A DNA stretch of 32,013 nucleotides from Promethearchaeota archaeon (GTDB lineage Archaea; Asgardarchaeota; Lokiarchaeia; Sigyniarchaeales; SOKP01), in NCBI GenBank assembly GCA_019058015.1, contig JAHLWH010000138.1, positions 1 to 32,013 of the forward strand. Reading direction: 5' to 3'. Position numbers and translations under genes: made by a program. Positions 1,777 to 9,053 of the stretch are shown here, piece by piece. The first letter of the stretch is position 1, and each line of letters opens with the position of its first letter. The notes under the pieces were generated by a model, which did no database searches, was not told the origin of the DNA, and was given only the letters and a program-made list of their open reading frames with translations.

Positions 1777-2121
1777 AATTAGAGCTGTTCAAATTTTTCT
1801 GGAGGATATTCTTGAATCTATAAAAAAAAAAATAAATATACTCATGGTATCAGTTATAATGAATTTTTACAAGATGAGAAAACCCAGGATGCTGTCGTGA
1901 GAAATTTAGAGATAATAGGTGAGGCTGTAAAAAATATTCCTAATGATTTTAAAGAAAAACATCTGGGAATAAATTGGAAATTAATAGTTGGAATGAGGAA
2001 TAAACTTATTCATCGATATTTTGGTGTTAGCCAATTGATTGTGTGGGAAACGATAAAAACCGATATCTCAGAATTAAAACCAAAGATTGAAGAGATTTTA
2101 GAAGAAATAAAAGCTAAGTAA
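1769..2121 (+). CDS. hepT: HEPN-domain RNase toxin (DUF86/HepT-like), frameshifted in poly-A
   Basis: The gene starts at ATG 1769 (MSKIRAVQIFLEDILESIK) and breaks at a run of 11 A around 1819-1830. The continuation in the next frame reads YTHGISYNEFLQDEKTQD and then the second half, ending at 2121. One extra A in the run restores a single frame of about 117 residues, normal for this family. The second half has the HEPN catalytic motif R-N-x3-H-x-Y (RNKLIHRY), where Arg and His form the RNase centre and the Tyr is the AMPylation target of MntA. HEPN toxins cleave RNA, reportedly tRNA ends, when not modified. The break is either a sequencing homopolymer error, a real inactivation, or a slippage-controlled frame. 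It is cotranscribed with the upstream mntA. Confidence 0.75.
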
Positions 2122-2311
2122 TGAAATAATCTAATACACTTTTATTAAGAAATTTTATTTTCCATTAAATTTTTAAAAACTTTTAAACAATATACCTTTT
2201 TAATCCATAACAAATAATAATTTATTATTTAAATCTGAAAGCTAATTAGAAATTATTAAATTAAAATGATTATAGAGAATAATGGAGGTATTTTACAAAA
2301 AGGTGTAAAAA

Positions 2312-4240
2312 ATGTCTGATGTTCGCATTGGTGTATTTGTTTGTAGATGAGGTATAAATATTGCGGGGGTTGTCGATGTTTCAAAAACCGTCGAAGAGCT
2401 GGATAAAGAAGAAAATGTCTGGGCTTGGGAGTACTTAAATATATGCACGGACACAGGAGCAGATTTTATTACTGAAAAGATAGAAGAAAAAAATCTTGAA
2501 AGGGTTGTTGTAGCGGCTTGCACTCCAAGAACACATCAACCAGTATTTCACAGTATCCTAAAAGATGCAGGCTTGCCTCCACGAATGCTTGAATTTGTAA
2601 ATATCAGAGAGCATTGTAGTTTTGTCCATATGTCAGAACCAGAAGAAGCAACTGTAAAGGCAATTGAATTAATCAAAGCAGGTATCGCGAGAGCAAATTT
2701 ATTAGAAGCTGTGCCAACCAAAATAGTTCCCGTAAAGAAATCTGCTTTAGTTGTTGGTGGCGGAATAGCGGGTTTGACAGCAGCTATTGATTTAGGAAAT
2801 GAAGGCTTTAAAGTCACTCTAGTAGAAAAAAAATCTACTACGGGTGGAAGAATGGCTCAATTGGATCGAACTTTCCCAACAGATGATTGTAGTATCTGAA
2901 TCTTGGGTCCTAAAATGTTAGAAGCAAATCGTCATCCTAATATTACTATAATGTCTCTAGCTGAAATAAAAGAGATAACAGGATATATTGGAAACTTCGA
3001 AGTTAAGGTACAGAAAAATCCAAGATATGTGTATGAAGAAACTTGCACGGGTTGTGGTCAGTGTACGGATGTTTGTCCAATATACATTCCAAACTATTTC
3101 GATGAAAATTTTTCAGCTAGAAAGTGTATTGACATTGCATTTGCACAAGCAGTTCCAGCAATTTACGACCTTGATAAAGAGTGGTGCGTAGAATGCTATG
3201 CTTGTGTTGATTCGTGTGATGTTCATTGTATTGATTTAAGTCAAGAACCCGAGATTGTTGAACTCGAAGTTGGAACGATTATAATCGCAACCGGTTGGGA
3301 CCTATATCAAGGAGATGAATATGGATACGGAAAATATGAAAATGTAGTAACACAAATTCAACTTGAAAGGATTCTCTCTCCAAATGGTCCAACTCTTGGC
3401 CATTTAAAGCGTCCATCCGATGGAAAGAGACCAAAAAACATATTATTTATTAATTGTGTTGGCTCAAGAAACGAGGAGCATCCGTGGTGCAGTAATGTAT
3501 GCTGTCTTTTATCAGTAAAAAATTCAAAACTAATAAAGTCAGAATATCCAGATGCAAATATTGTGGTTTCATACATAGATATGAGATGTGCAGGGAAAAT
3601 GTATGAAGAATATTATAAGCGTTCCAGAGAAGCCGGAATTATGTATATAAATGGGAAAGTAGGAAAATTAATTGAAGATCCAAAAACTAAGAATCTTGTC
3701 GCTAGTATGGAATCAATTGGGACTGGAGGTATTGTAGAATTTGAAGCTGATTTAGTAGTTCTATCTTCAGCATCATTACCTTCAGCTGGAACTGATGAGA
3801 TTGCACAAGTTCTAAAATTGGAGAAAAGCCCTAGTGGTTTCTTAAAGGAATTTCATCCAAGACTTGATCCCATCGAAACTAAGTCGCCTGGAATCTATAT
3901 TTGTGGTTCTTGCCAAGGGCAAAAAGCGATCGATGCAACTGTCAATCATGCAAGAGGGGCAGCACAAGCTGCTTCAATTCCGATGAACAAAGGAGAATTT
4001 GTTATTGAATTAATTCGGGCTGATCCGATTGATGAAAGGTGTGCAAAATGCTATATGTGTATAGAAACATGCCCTTATAGCGCCATCTCGGTTAATGAAG
4101 CTGGACAAATTGAAGTTGATCTTATAAGTTGTAGAGGATGCGGTATGTGTGCTGCAACTTGTCCATCAATCGCAATTGAGCTTCGTTATTACCGAGATTA
4201 TCAATTCAATGCAGTAATTGACTCATTATTCGAAGCATAA
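2312..4240 (+). CDS. hdrA: HdrA heterodisulfide reductase subunit A, selenoprotein with two in-frame UGA
   Basis: Reading through TGA at 2348-2350 and 2897-2899 gives one 642-residue protein that matches HdrA from end to end, so I treat both as Sec (residues 13 and 196). The N-terminal domain has VFVCRUGINIAG where the family has C-x-C-G-x-N. Next comes a FAD-binding motif VVGGGIAGLTAAIDL near residue 148, then DDCSIUILGPKM, where Cys is usual and Sec is known in methanogens. An inserted ferredoxin region follows (CTGCGQCTDVCP near 244, CVECYACVDSC near 290), with two C-terminal [4Fe-4S] motifs (CAKCYMCIETCP, CRGCGMCAATCP). HdrA is the flavin and Fe-S core that bifurcates or relays electrons between ferredoxin, HdrB/C-type partners and MvhD. 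The mvhD gene follows after 19 nt. No hdrB or hdrC is present here. The only SECIS seen is downstream of mvhD. Confidence 0.93.
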
Positions 4241-4259
4241 ACAAAAGGAGGAAAAAATC

Positions 4260-4688
4260 ATGAGTTCTGATATAAAGATTGCATCCTTTATGTGTTGGAA
4301 ATGAGGGTATGGCTCTGGTGATATGGCTGGTACTATTCGCGCACAATATCCAATAAGTATTAGACCGATATTAGTTCCTTGCGCTGGAAGAGTTGGTTCA
4401 GAGCTAGTTATGAGAACAATCGGTCGTGGTGCCGATGGAGTTCTAATTGTTGGATGATATCCAGGTGAATGTGATTTCGAAACAGGGAATAAATTTGCAT
4501 GGAGAGAAGTTGAATATCTTAATGAAGTTTTAGATACTATAGGTTTTTCTAATAAAAGAGTTAAAATGGCATTCTGCACTTCTGCAGAAGGACAAAAATT
4601 TCAAAGAGTAGCAACCGAATTTGACAAAGAAATTCGAAAACTAGGAAAAAACCCCCTCAAAAACAAAAATTCCGATAAGAATGAATAA
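4260..4688 (+). CDS. mvhD: MvhD/VhuD-type electron-transfer subunit, selenoprotein with two in-frame UGA
   Basis: ATG at 4260 follows AAAAGGAGG (4243-4251). Reading through TGA at 4302-4304 and 4455-4457 gives 142 residues of the MvhD family. Sec15 lies in FMCWKUGYGSGDMAGT, where the family has a CxxC-type [2Fe-2S] ligand set. Sec66 lies in VGUYPGECDFETGN, where the family has G-C-H-P-G-x-C-H-Y. Other expected ligands (Cys12, Cys in VPCAGR, Cys in PGECDF) are present. MvhD passes electrons between HdrA and a hydrogenase, formate dehydrogenase or F420-linked module. In methanogens Sec is also known in this family. The stop codon TAA at 4686-4688 is buried in the 5' stem of the SECIS hairpin. 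The reading frame ends in a Lys/Asn-rich tail of about 15 residues. Confidence 0.92.
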
Positions 4689-4716
4689 TGTGAAAAAATC
4701 CTGGTCGCATTATGAC
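4681..4716 (+). promoter_or_regulatory. SECIS element for the hdrA-mvhD operon (k-turn type)
   Basis: AUGA (4681-4684) is followed by an 8-bp stem, AUAAUGUG (4685-4692) pairing with CGCAUUAU (4706-4713), with one U-G pair. A 13-nt loop begins with six A (4693-4705) and the 3' side closes with GAC (4714-4716). The UGA and GA can form the tandem G-A pairs of a eukaryote-like SECIS quartet. A lower helix UUCCGAU (4670-4676) with AUCGGAA (4733-4739) encloses it, and a small hairpin CCUAU/AUGGG lies between at 4719-4732. The element resembles the one at 8538-8573 on the other strand in quartet, stem length and loop (A6, 13 nt), which supports the call. It overlaps the mvhD stop codon. Confidence 0.82.
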
Positions 4717-4801
4717 TACCTATTGCAATGGGATCGGAAATAAGTAATTTTTTTAAAAAAAATACCAAAAAAAAGGTTAATAATTGTAAAATAGTATAGA
4801 A

Positions 4802-5953
4802 TTGGTGAAACTCTTGGAACCAATGGAAGAATTCTTAATAAAATATGAAGATGTTAAAAATATTTTATCATCCCTACTAAAAGAAAAGGTAGTGTCGAAG
4901 ATAATTAGTGGTGAGATCAAAAAAGGTCATTTTGCGTTATCTCCAAAATTGGTATCAACACCAGAAGAATTAAATGATTTACCGCTTTCTCAACTTATTA
5001 CTTATGGTTATGCTCGAACCGATAGTGCATCTAAATATTTACATAAAAATGCAAATGGCGCATTGGACGAAAAAATAGGGCTTATTGCTCGTCCTTGCGA
5101 TACAAGAGCAATAATCGAACTTATTAAATTACATCAAATCAATCCTGATAATTTATTTATTATTGCAATTGAAGATATGGGACTAATCCCGTCTTCAATG
5201 ATTACAAAGATATTTAACAAAAGAAAGGAGTTTGATCAAAGTAAAATAATTCGGGATAAATTAACCGCTGAAAATCTTACCCTTGTCTTAGATGGTGGGA
5301 GTTTAGAGGTTTTGGAGTTTAATGATAATTTAAAAATAGCAGATAATTGTTTGAGATGCCTAAGAAAAGTTCCTGTTATAGGTGATTTATCGATAAGTGA
5401 TATCGGAATCTCCGTAAAATCAGATGATTTAATATTACGTATTTATTCTGAGAAGGGAAAGTCTGCTGTTGAGAAAGCTGGAATTAAAACCAGAAAAATT
5501 CCCGATGACCTAAAAAAACACAATACTGAAAGAGTAGCGACTATTTTAAAAAATGCTGAAGAAAAACGCACTAAAGATTTGGAAGAATGGAAAACTATGA
5601 ATCAAGATGAAAAATTGGAAATGTTAAACAAATGCACTATGTGTGGTCTCTGCATTCGCGGTTGCCCAGTATGCTACTGTATTGATTGTATTTTAATGCA
5701 AAAACGAAAAGAAAAATCAATTAATAATACTGCATATCAATTAACCCGCGTTGCACATGTCGCTGACAGATGTGTGGAATGCGGTAATTGTGCCAATAAT
5801 TGTCCAATGAACTTACCATTATCTGAATACTTCCAATCATTAATTGATACATTTAAAGAGAAATTTAATTATGTTGCTGGAGAATCAGTTGACGATATTC
5901 CATTCCGCTCTGGTAAAGCAATAAAGGAAATGGAATTAGAAAAAACCGCTTAA
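4802..5953 (+). CDS. FrhB/FdhB-family F420/flavin dehydrogenase beta subunit with two C-terminal [4Fe-4S] motifs
   Basis: About 380 residues. Possible starts are TTG 4802, GTG 4805 or ATG 4823; no clear Shine-Dalgarno decides. The N-terminal two-thirds resembles the coenzyme F420 hydrogenase/dehydrogenase beta family (IARPCDTRAIIELIKL and ADNCLRCLRKVP are family-like Cys segments). The C-terminus has two ferredoxin motifs, CTMCGLCIRGCP and CVECGNCANNCP. Such subunits carry FAD and Fe-S clusters and exchange electrons with F420H2, NAD(P)H or formate dehydrogenase. Placed 113 nt after mvhD in the same direction, it is the likely electron-input or output subunit for the Hdr-Mvh module. It contains no in-frame UGA. 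The substrate (F420, NAD(P) or other) is not shown by the sequence. Confidence 0.8.
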   Translation: MVKLLEPMEEFLIKYEDVKNILSSLLKEKVVSKIISGEIKKGHFALSPKLVSTPEELNDLPLSQLITYGYARTDSASKYLHKNANGALDEKIGLIARPCDTRAIIELIKLHQINPDNLFIIAIEDMGLIPSSMITKIFNKRKEFDQSKIIRDKLTAENLTLVLDGGSLEVLEFNDNLKIADNCLRCLRKVPVIGDLSISDIGISVKSDDLILRIYSEKGKSAVEKAGIKTRKIPDDLKKHNTERVATILKNAEEKRTKDLEEWKTMNQDEKLEMLNKCTMCGLCIRGCPVCYCIDCILMQKRKEKSINNTAYQLTRVAHVADRCVECGNCANNCPMNLPLSEYFQSLIDTFKEKFNYVAGESVDDIPFRSGKAIKEMELEKTA

Positions 5954-6017
5954 AAATATAATTTTTTATTAAATTCTTACTTAATTTTTTTGAATAATTA
6001 AAGGGCGCAACCCTTTT

Positions 6018-6053
6018 GTCAATCTTTCACTAACATTTTTTGAAAGATATCAT
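6018..6053 (-). promoter_or_regulatory. Second SECIS copy, apparently orphaned
   Basis: On the minus strand this reads AUGA, a 5' stem strand, AAAAAAUGUUAGU loop, the 3' stem strand GAAAGAU and UGAC, nearly identical to 8538-8573. The stem here pairs fully over 7 bp, while the other copy has one mismatch. The adjacent GC hairpin AAAGGG/CCCTTT (6000-6016) is also shared between the two copies and could terminate transcription of the plus-strand gene ending at 5953. The only coding sequence just upstream of this SECIS on its strand is a fragment of the C-terminus of the same selenoprotein family (6059-6118), so it no longer serves an intact gene. Confidence 0.7.
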
Positions 6054-6058
6054 CCAAA

Positions 6059-6118
6059 TTATATAGGTTTTTTCAGACTCTCAAAATAATTAGTAAAATT
6101 TCCAATCGCTTTTAAAAT
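6059..6118 (-). pseudogene. Remnant of the C-terminus of a beta-grasp selenoprotein paralogue
   Basis: The minus-strand frame ending at TAA 6061-6059 reads LKAIGNFTNYFESLKKPI. It aligns with the C-terminal tail of the selenoprotein at 8585 (MKKFGKENEYFAHYFKKLKK) with a similar spacing from stop to SECIS (5 nt against 11 nt). Upstream of about 6120 I see no further similarity and no UGA-UGA site, and the plus-strand gene at 6200 begins soon after. This is best read as a decayed duplicate, with most of the gene lost and the 3' end plus SECIS remaining. Confidence 0.55.
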
Positions 6119-6199
6119 AAAAATAGTTATGAGATATAAATCGAAGAATTTAAATTCATATTTACTTTTTTATATCCTATTAATTTATTGGGATAAGAA

Positions 6200-6529
6200 A
6201 TGTCAATTATATTATCCAAAAAATCTCAAGAATTCATAAAAAAAAATAAGATCTCTAATTTATTCATCGATATTAATTTTATTGAAGAAAAATGCGTTCA
6301 AATTTATGAACCAAAAATAAAAATAATAGAAAGAACAGATTTAAACGAATATAATAATTTTGAAAGTATATCTTCTGAAAAATTGACTATTTTTTTATCA
6401 GAAAAATTTATCCAAATTTATGGACAATTGACTGAATATTATTTAGATTTTGCTGGCTTTCTTAAAAAAGAGTTGATTATTGAAAATGCTGAACCAATTA
6501 TAAAAAACCTTTGCAAAATTGGAAAATAA
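6200..6529 (+). CDS. Hypothetical small protein, possibly HesB/IscA-like
   Basis: A 109-residue ATG-started frame with strong Lys/Ile/Asn bias. The N-terminus (MSIILSKKSQEFIKKNKIS) and size recall HesB/IscA-type small proteins that have the form beta-strand, helix, then a Cys-bearing loop. Only two Cys are present (EEKCVQIYEP and the near-terminal NLCKIGK), and the A-type Fe-S motif is not evident. It precedes the thioredoxin and CcdA genes in the same direction with a 41-nt gap, so a thiol or Fe-S role would fit the context. I do not recognise it with confidence. Confidence 0.5.
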   Translation: MSIILSKKSQEFIKKNKISNLFIDINFIEEKCVQIYEPKIKIIERTDLNEYNNFESISSEKLTIFLSEKFIQIYGQLTEYYLDFAGFLKKELIIENAEPIIKNLCKIGK

Positions 6530-8053: not shown

Positions 8054-8537
8054 ATTTCATCATCACTATTTTATCGGGACTAAATGAAAACTGTTTGTAG
8101 ATTAAATCATTTTATGGAATTTTATATTTTGGGAATAACCGGGAATAACCGTCATAATTACTTTAGATTTTCGTATAGCGTTAAACTCTTAAGAGTTCTC
8201 AATATTATACCCTATTTAATAATTAACCCTCAACAATTTTGAACCTAAGTCAAGTTTAAATCTAAACGATCCACAATCATTCAAATATCATTCTTAATTA
8301 TTCAATGTGAAAAAAGAGAAATTTGAAAAGATTTTGAATTATAATTTAAAAAAATTTACAGAAAAGGAAATAATAAGGTAAGATTAAGTAAAACTGATGT
8401 AAGTAGATGATTTAATTTTTCATAAAAATGAAATTTTTTAATAAAACAAGACATCTTTAAAAATAAATTAATTTTATCGTCAAATAACTGATTTTTTAAA
8501 ATAATACTCTAAATTTTAAAGAGGGGGCAACCCTTTT
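8054..8537. other. Gene-poor stretch after ccdA
   Basis: About 480 bases, mostly very AT-rich, with no credible coding frame. A tandem direct repeat of GGGAATAACC occurs near 8130-8150. The right end (8519-8537) is the G/C hairpin that trails the SECIS of the convergent selenoprotein gene and is shared with 6000-6017. Nothing else is recognised. Confidence 0.5.
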
Positions 8538-8573
8538 GTCAATCTTGCACTAACATTTTTTGAAAGATATCAT
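8538..8573 (-). promoter_or_regulatory. SECIS element for the beta-grasp selenoprotein
   Basis: On the minus strand, 11 nt after the TAG stop at 8587-8585: AUGA (8573-8570), a 5' strand UAUCUUUC, a 13-nt loop AAAAAAUGUUAGU, a 3' strand GCAAGAU and UGAC ending at 8538. UGA and GA form the expected G-A tandem, with a U-U next to it. The stem has one internal mismatch (U-C). A short lower helix UUUG/CAAA flanks the quartet. Architecture and loop match the SECIS at 4681-4716 although the surrounding genes are unrelated. Confidence 0.82.
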
Positions 8574-8584
8574 ACAAATTTAAT

Positions 8585-9053
8585 CTATTTCTTTAGTTTT
8601 TTAAAGTAATGGGCAAAATATTCATTTTCTTTTCCGAATTTTTTCATAATGATCTTTTTGAGTGAACCCATATCTAATCGTTGCTTGACCTTTTCTCATC
8701 AACATCCAGCATCAGGATGTAGCTTAATCTCACTATCTGGATACAAATTGAAATCCAAATTATCCCGAAGAGGCATAAACTGTCTATTAGGTCCATAAGC
8801 ATTCACAGCGCAGTCGTCGTATATCTCATTTTTTTGTGGATTCCAGAATAATTGTAGATAAGTTTTAATATAGCCCTCATATAAAGGGAATGGAGAATTT
8901 TCTGGATTTTCTAAAACATGTTTATCCACAATAGCTAATGCTTCAATAAATTTAGCGTCGTCCTTTACTAATACCTCATATTTTTTACCTTCATTGAGCC
9001 CTTTTACAGGTGCAAAAATTGTAAATTCAATTTTTTTAATTTTTCACCACCAT
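8585..9053 (-). CDS. MoaD/ThiS-like beta-grasp selenoprotein with Cys-Sec-Sec near the C-terminus
   Basis: The clean frame begins MDKHVLENPEN at 8929 and stops at TGA (8701-8699), but a second TGA follows directly (8698-8696). The frame then stays open for 36 more codons to TAG 8585, with a SECIS 11 nt later. Upstream the frame continues without a start to about 9040. Removing one A from the A5 run at 9040-9044 joins it to ATG 9053 (MVVKIKKIEFTIFAPV), for 155 residues in all with Sec118 and Sec119. The pattern is beta-strand start, VNAYGPNRQFMPL, then PDSEIKLHPDAGC. The last part matches the G-D-E-V-x-L-x-P-P-V-x-G-G end of MoaD/ThiS proteins, with the Gly-Gly tail replaced by G-C-U-U and then a basic tail. 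Function unknown; a sulfur/selenium carrier or redox role is inference. Confidence 0.72.

Follow-up and report, generated by a model that had tools for sequence, protein, structure and literature searches.

A eukaryote-like SECIS element with a third helix at the 3' end of an Asgard hdrA-mvhD operon

How does an operon with four in-frame UGA codons, distributed over two genes, direct their reading as selenocysteine (Sec)? The question is posed by an hdrA-mvhD operon on contig C134 of the 3.84-Mb genome of a Lokiarchaeon (Asgard archaea), in which the two genes are separated by a gap of 19 nt. The window, by which we mean the whole 32,013-nucleotide stretch of DNA analysed here, contains the operon at the following positions:

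2312-4240, plus strand: hdrA, with Sec codons at 2348-2350 and 2897-2899
4260-4688, plus strand: mvhD/frhD (FlpD family), from the translation and PF02662 (E 3e-39)
4302-4304 and 4455-4457, plus strand: the Sec codons (in-frame UGA) of mvhD, from the translation

The closest named relative is a Lokiarchaeota MAG, with 98% identity in MvhD, and both in-frame UGAs of mvhD are retained by most relatives. Asgard SECIS elements are held to link archaeal and eukaryotic selenocysteine decoding, and Mariotti 2016 is said to have been the first report of eSECIS-like elements in Lokiarchaeota.

We conclude that the RNA hairpin at the 3' end of the operon is a conserved signal for reading stop codons as selenocysteine. 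It is a true member of a published class, the Asgard 'eukaryote-like' SECIS type I with an AUGA/GA core. The case is built on its sequence, conservation and covariation, its association with UGA codons, its linkage to hdrA, and a genome that encodes tRNA-Sec, SepSecS and a SelB-family protein. We put the probability that the element at 4670-4739 is the SECIS of this operon at about 0.92, a figure that covers this statement alone and excludes the exchange of SECIS elements considered below. The hdrA/frhD (=mvhD) class, including one element common to both genes and the overlap with the stop codon, is already described in the text of PMC11227280; a third helix, carried by the window element, is absent from that text.

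Architecture of the element and comparison with known SECIS types

The minimum-energy fold of the element has -17.1 kcal/mol (z -2.19), and 7 of 200 shuffles fold equally well, so that by folding energy alone the signal is modest. The element is composed of the following parts:

4670-4676, plus strand: helix I (outer helix), 5' strand UUCCGAU, within the mvhD coding sequence (minimum-energy fold)
4681-4684, plus strand: AUGA, the 5' half of the k-turn-like quartet (conservation in 113 distinct elements)
4685-4693, plus strand: helix II (upper stem), 5' strand, which holds the stop codon (minimum-energy fold, covariation, RNAalifold)
4686-4688, plus strand: UAA stop codon of mvhD within helix II (translation)
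4694-4704, plus strand: apical loop AAAAAUCCUGG, 11 nt (conservation in 113 distinct elements)
4705-4713, plus strand: helix II, 3' strand (minimum-energy fold, covariation, RNAalifold)
4714-4715, plus strand: GA, the 3' half of the quartet (conservation in 113 distinct elements)
4719-4732, plus strand: helix III, an accessory hairpin CCUAU-UGCA-AUGGG (minimum-energy fold, RNAalifold, covariation, shuffles)
4733-4739, plus strand: helix I, 3' strand AUCGGAA (minimum-energy fold)

The initial annotation had described a eukaryote-like SECIS with an AUGA/GA core and an A-rich loop inside a 7-bp outer helix. Core and loop are borne out by fold and conservation, and the outer helix (4670-4676/4733-4739) is present in the minimum-energy fold. 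The proposed stem of 8 bp with a 13-nt A6 loop is a real helix whose sizes had to be corrected to nine pairs and an 11-nt loop; 36 of the 37 aligned elements have a standard base pair at the ninth place (here A4693-U4705), and the loop ends in GG in the window. The UAA stop codon of mvhD provides pairs 2-4 of helix II. Helix III, a 5-bp hairpin (4719-4723/4728-4732) enclosed by helix I, was absent from that annotation.

The published type I criteria are those of Huang, Xiao and Zhang 2024 (PMC11227280), whose text is silent on helix III. Positions 4681-4715 contain the GA_[G/A]A core, an upper stem within 7-15 bp with at most two mismatches and a ministem-free apical loop within 8-20 nt. The element lies in the range from -30 to +600 nt around the 3' end of a selenoprotein gene with in-frame UGA (mvhD ends at 4688), and helix I forms a lower stem below the core, across an internal loop whose 3' side also carries helix III. 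With the class as described in that text, it shares the AUGA_GA core and 9-bp upper stem, the A-led apical loop of 8-20 nt, the place at the frhD (mvhD) 3' end, the sharing by hdrA and the stop overlap. It differs by the third helix on its 3' side, which is absent from the parts named there (core, upper stem, apical loop, internal loop and lower stem). Its stop codon is a UAA in the upper stem, whereas section 4 of the same paper, citing Mariotti 2016, recounts UGA stops that overlap AUGA.

Eukaryotic type I SECIS elements, as portrayed in the text of PMC13188914, have the same AUGA/GA quartet, an unpaired A opening the apical loop, and an outer and an upper helix. The quartet letters are present and conserved in the Asgard elements, and the k-turn geometry is predicted. 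Unlike its eukaryotic counterparts, however, the window element has a three-helix junction instead of a plain internal loop, starts inside a coding sequence, and as a single element most likely serves two cistrons. It also differs in that no Rfam family matches at gathering score in the window, and no SECIS family is found among the five Rfam matches up to E 10 in 2000-6300. These five (E 1.6-8.4) belong to unrelated families and were dismissed as chance.

Like the methanogen (euryarchaeal) SECIS, the element lies downstream of the gene, in an hdrA-frhD operon, and a [A/G]UGA_[G/A]A motif is reported for methanogen hdrA/frhD elements in the text of PMC11227280. It is nevertheless unlike the GAA-bulge elements of methanogens, as initially stated. 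Its AU-rich upper stem has nine pairs instead of 3-6, no GAA_A bulge is found between lower and upper stem, and the letters GAA at 4679-4681 fall within the junction loop. According to the text of a review (PMC9499178), most archaeal SECIS have two apical loops, which helix III recalls, while the Lokiarchaeotal SECIS is given a single apical loop. We did not find helix III in the texts compared here (PMC11227280 and PMC9499178); it may have been depicted in figures or in Mariotti 2016.

Conservation, covariation and the third helix

A search with MvhD over 227 Asgard genomes gave a match in 219. We gathered 164 loci, comprising 30 from this search, 14 named ones and 120 further stretches. At 144 of them at least one of the two Sec positions is occupied by UGA; at the other 20, each position has a Cys codon. 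These were scanned for the pattern NUGA - stem - loop - [GA]A near the stop. An earlier strict scan missed many relatives and returned junk matches far downstream, and a looser scan took its place. In the latter, the core is present in 123 of the 144 Sec-coding loci as compared to 1 of the 20 Cys-coding ones. Among the 21 Sec loci in which the scan found no core, five (L009, L015, L018, L027 and L055) have, by eye, a bulged stem in an element of a second type, B, distinguished by its outer helix GUGUU/AACAC from the ACCGAA/UUCGG of the window's type A.

The Sec-coding loci comprise 113 distinct elements, a set from which identical elements alone were removed, in which L031-L044 partly duplicate genomes already included, and which retains one doubtful element (L143, offset -14). 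The 5' half of the quartet reads AUGA in 108, GUGA in four and UUGA in one (UGA being demanded by the scan), and the 3' half reads GA in 106 and AA in seven (the scan demanding one or the other). The apical loop has 11 nt in 88 elements, begins with AAAAA or GAAAA in 68 and ends with AG in 86. Since the threshold and bonuses of the looser scan (for GA, for AA in the loop and for A before UGA) favour the expected pattern, the constancy of these letters is partly by construction.

Covariation provides a second line of evidence. In an alignment of 37 sequences, all nine pairs of helix II show changes on both sides that preserve pairing, and 91.3% of their cells are paired. Within the window's own genus, L003 and L001 differ in the stem with the stop codon by the exchange of a G-C pair for an A-U pair. 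Helix III has both-sided changes in four of five pairs (85.9% of cells paired). For helix I, four of six modelled pairs change on both sides (alignment A1), and 63.5% of cells are paired in the outer four pairs and 79.7% in the inner two. The covariation score of the whole structure is 0.544, as opposed to 0.222 with shuffled partners and at most 0.145 with partners slid. RNAalifold, given the alignment alone, recovers eight of the nine helix-II pairs, three helix-III pairs and none of helix I. The initial annotation had staked its case on covariation of the stem and on retention of the quartet by relatives that keep their UGAs. With compensatory changes at every helix-II pair and the core in most UGA-bearing loci, both points speak in favour of the element.

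Helix III was assessed further by shuffling the flanks. A hairpin score of at least 10 is reached in 89.5% of 124 elements, compared to 16.5% with shuffled flanks; the same test gives 93.5% and 43.7% for the outer helix. Some elements of this set are repeats, one (L159) comes from a Cys locus, and the shuffling preserved base but not dinucleotide content. The unconstrained minimum-energy fold contains all three helices in 87 of the 113 distinct Sec elements, as against 26% of 1130 sequences with dinucleotide-shuffled flanks. The helix III loops listed (UGCA, GCG, GAGCA, UAGCU, UUGUGAU and others) all contain GC or GU. The same scan finds helix III in the window's family, in families f3, f4, f6, f7, f20 and f26, and in contigs labelled Jord- and Sigynarchaeota.

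Further elements and a UGA-UGA gene family

A covariance model, R1, was made from 37 mvhD elements of type A. It gives the window element 82.4 bits (E 4.4e-16 for the genome), values that are optimistic because this element is among the 37 training rows. R1 was tested on 93 loci, namely the 20 Cys loci, 40 type-B loci and 33 remaining ones (20 Cys-free Sec or mixed loci and further ones). Up to E 10, it matches none of the Cys loci. It matches none of the 40 type-B loci (L005-L030, L045-L058) either, though the pattern scan gives most of these the same helices; a further type-B locus, L117, is matched weakly (E 0.43). In the remaining set, 17 of 33 loci are matched up to E 10, ten of them at E 0.01 or below, and some of the weakest matches (L137 and the second matches of L111 and L129) look like chance.

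In the window's own genome, R1 finds elements 3' of further mvhD copies with two UGAs (C125 and C237) and 3' of a hydrogenase large-subunit frame (C28). A match on C267 (22 bits, E 0.55) lacks an obvious UGA gene and was set aside as probably chance. This search scored 150 of 7111 first candidates and missed an element in the window itself (8506-8590), so its list is not complete. On the minus strand, the window contains:

8585-9043, minus strand: an unannotated 152-codon frame (8588-9043) with a tandem UGA-UGA (8701-8696, C-U-U), followed by the SECIS at 8506-8590; its start codon is uncertain
8506-8590, minus strand: SECIS (R1, 35.7 bits, E 1.7e-6)
5994-6070, minus strand: SECIS-like element (R1, 33.4 bits, E 6.6e-6)

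No plausible minus-strand gene precedes the element at 5994-6070. The sequence upstream of it resembles, by eye, the C-terminal end of the UGA-UGA protein, which suggests that it is probably the relic of a second copy. The element is retained in L031 and L004.

The UGA-UGA protein belongs to a family with matches in 63 of the 227 Asgard genomes. UGA is present in all listed matches that extend across the pair, and the four matches without it are N-terminal pieces. The codons are UGA UGA in 29 of 29 loci checked, three of which lack the preceding Cys. In 28 of these 29 an element lies at most 80 nt downstream; a thirtieth locus, which ends at its contig end, stands outside this count. R1 matches 25 of the 30 loci (L183, L187, L188, L200 and L207 have none), and five of the 30 R1 matches at these loci are those of a second copy or of an adjacent gene. 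Helices II and III covary here again, with 94.4% and 92.3% of cells paired, in an alignment that was fitted to the model and in which about half of the helix-III cells are gaps. Seven genomes (G109, G116, G117, G118, G097, G098 and G099) have two nearby copies of the gene on one contig, and G096 has only a short fragment with further stops.

Searches of Pfam and NCBIfam with the window copy gave nothing up to E 1; among 21 family members, three have one stray weak Pfam match each (best E 0.084), and a PDB search with the family profile was likewise empty up to E 10. In structure prediction, the best model has a pLDDT of 86.8 and the other four 59-68. The predicted fold is similar to that of SAMP1 and other beta-grasp proteins (Foldseek E 2.7e-3; VIA Z 7.3, a range in which a common arrangement may be all that is shared), with the Sec pair directly after the last strand. 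By name, the family is not among the seven selenoprotein families listed in section 13 of PMC11227280. The sequences suggest that it is probably a new selenoprotein family with two adjacent selenocysteines.

These matches bear on the question whether the hairpins could instead be a transcription terminator, or some other RNA unrelated to selenocysteine. A run of seven U at 4748-4754 and the lack of a SECIS match in Rfam would fit such a role. The element, however, accompanies UGA-coding mvhD genes (123/144) and hardly ever their Cys-coding homologues (1/20), and R1 finds it behind an unrelated, UGA-UGA-bearing gene family at most loci. A terminator is thus extremely improbable, and we treat the element as a SECIS in what follows.

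One element for two genes, its stop codon and its origin

The four UGAs lie 226, 379, 1784 and 2333 nt before AUGA, in two cistrons. In 139 stretches hdrA is found upstream of mvhD, and the two matches are mostly 20-60 nt apart. Of these stretches, 133 retain the second hdrA UGA, and in the remaining six the match does not extend over it; at the first, 84 have UGA, 15 a Cys codon and 40 are not covered. At five further Sec loci, no hdrA was detected within the stretch. On the plus strand of the window, the element at 4670-4739 is the only one that R1 detects up to E 10. Given the adjacency of the genes, the kept UGA and the absence of another plus-strand element, hdrA most likely depends on this SECIS too, at a distance of 1.8-2.3 kb and past its own stop codon. 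Sharing by hdrA and frhD has already been published (PMC11227280, text).

The genome encodes tRNA-Sec (60.1 bits, cut-off 47), SepSecS (484.9 bits) and a SelB-family protein whose match, 266.9 bits against a cut-off of 242.25, extends over positions 1-294 of the 581-position model. The SepSecS gene (G000:C197:20705-22003, L167) itself has one in-frame UGA near its N-terminus. We considered this UGA as a Sec codon and rejected it: of 65 family genomes, 62 have a match that passes the cut-off, and G000 alone shows this UGA; such a singleton is likely a strain oddity or a sequencing or assembly error.

We infer the following mode of action. The tandem G.A quartet (AUGA/GA) would form a k-turn between helix I and helix II, and helix III would branch off the 3' side to give a three-helix junction. 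A k-turn-binding protein and/or the Sec elongation factor may dock there and bring Sec-tRNA to the four upstream UGAs. Terminating ribosomes would briefly melt the element, which may refold behind them. In the texts of the respective papers, a lokiarchaeal SECIS is reported to be inactive in Methanococcus maripaludis (PMC11881835) and a homologue of SBP2 is not reported for Asgard archaea (PMC11227280).

The place of the stop codon had suggested to the initial annotation that termination and Sec decoding are coupled. It had correctly located the UAA inside the stem, an arrangement confined to one genus. Measured from the stop's first base to the A that opens AUGA, the offset is -5 in four of the 113 distinct Sec-coding elements (L001-L004, the window's genus, all UAA). 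It is -1 in 17, all UGA, so that the UGA of the core itself serves as stop, and +3 to +5 in 27, of which 22 are UAG at +4. A further 64 have +8 to +59, with 58 of these at +12 to +23, i.e. with the stop 12-23 nt before AUGA, and the doubtful element has -14. Overlap of stop and element is common, and the in-stem stop is one end of a drifting distribution.

If the in-stem stop had been selected for coupling, ribosomes finishing mvhD would unfold the SECIS and throttle further decoding. All four genus members with this orthologue do have UAA in helix II, and the stop lies within -5 to +5 of AUGA in 48 of the 113 elements. However, a position that ranges from -14 to +59, is in the stem in a single genus and most often falls 12-23 nt before AUGA leaves a conserved coupling unsupported. 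In the UAG-stop paralogues of the same genus (L061, L062 and L070), the next in-frame stop is this same UAA, which argues that it was already there, by chance, as a backup stop. Terminating ribosomes would run into many of these elements in any case, so the mvhD of the window is not singled out. We therefore regard selection for coupling as unlikely; the stop-in-stem arrangement is a local oddity whose explanation is probably ordinary.

Such an explanation may lie in the origin of the 3' end. In the protein tree, the window genus is nested in a clade of 44 rows (support 94/91) whose other mvhDs have the second SECIS type, and two type-B rows, L005 and L010, are sisters of the genus. This clade holds 40 elements of type B and the four type-A elements of the window genus, while the other holds 53 of type A and one of type B (L015 and L016 were counted as type B by eye, from sequence). 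Orthologues aside, the elements most similar to that of the window are four of the genus's five paralogues; the remaining one, L064, is level with L067 and L035. The second operon of the same genome, L061, has a UAG stop at +4 and then an in-frame UAA in the same stem. The corresponding codon of the window mvhD is AAG, so that the reading frame continues into the element as far as the following in-frame UAA.

Judging from these sequences, we lean towards the view that the 3' end of the window mvhD, including its SECIS, was taken from the paralogous operon of the genus. The 3' end would have been copied between the operons, with the stop moved into the stem as a by-product. We put this no higher because tree support is moderate (94/88 and 94/91 over 137 columns, below the strict threshold of the tool). 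Alternatively, the window genus may have retained an ancestral type-A SECIS, type B having arisen in sister lineages, so that no exchange took place here. The forks around the genus, at 94/88, are not strongly supported, which leaves room for this scenario. The type-B sisters L005 and L010, however, speak against it, as does the resemblance of the element to own-genus paralogues over nearly all other elements. Exchange can moreover be seen to occur. L117 (G115:C23) has a hybrid 3' end, in which the start of a type-A SECIS is followed by a complete type-B SECIS, behind a protein of clade A; it is a visible case of the reverse exchange between paralogous mvhD genes. Ancestral retention is therefore possible but in our view not probable, and exchange between paralogous operons is the reading we prefer.

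Taken together, we propose that Asgard SECIS elements may form three-helix junctions whose second, separately conserved hairpin, with its GC/GU loop, would be a potential contact for a protein or the ribosome that was lost toward eukaryotes. In this proposal, whose odds as a whole we judge to be even, such modules would be swapped between paralogous operons and would also serve an undescribed, beta-grasp-like double-Sec family. The three-helix covariance model is a useful detector; in the window, it led to what is likely a new selenoprotein gene and to a probable SECIS relic. The drifting stop codon hints at a SECIS that tolerates terminating ribosomes. Helix III, absent from the model texts compared here, alters what the archaeal-to-eukaryotic SECIS transition must explain and offers a concrete target for binding studies.
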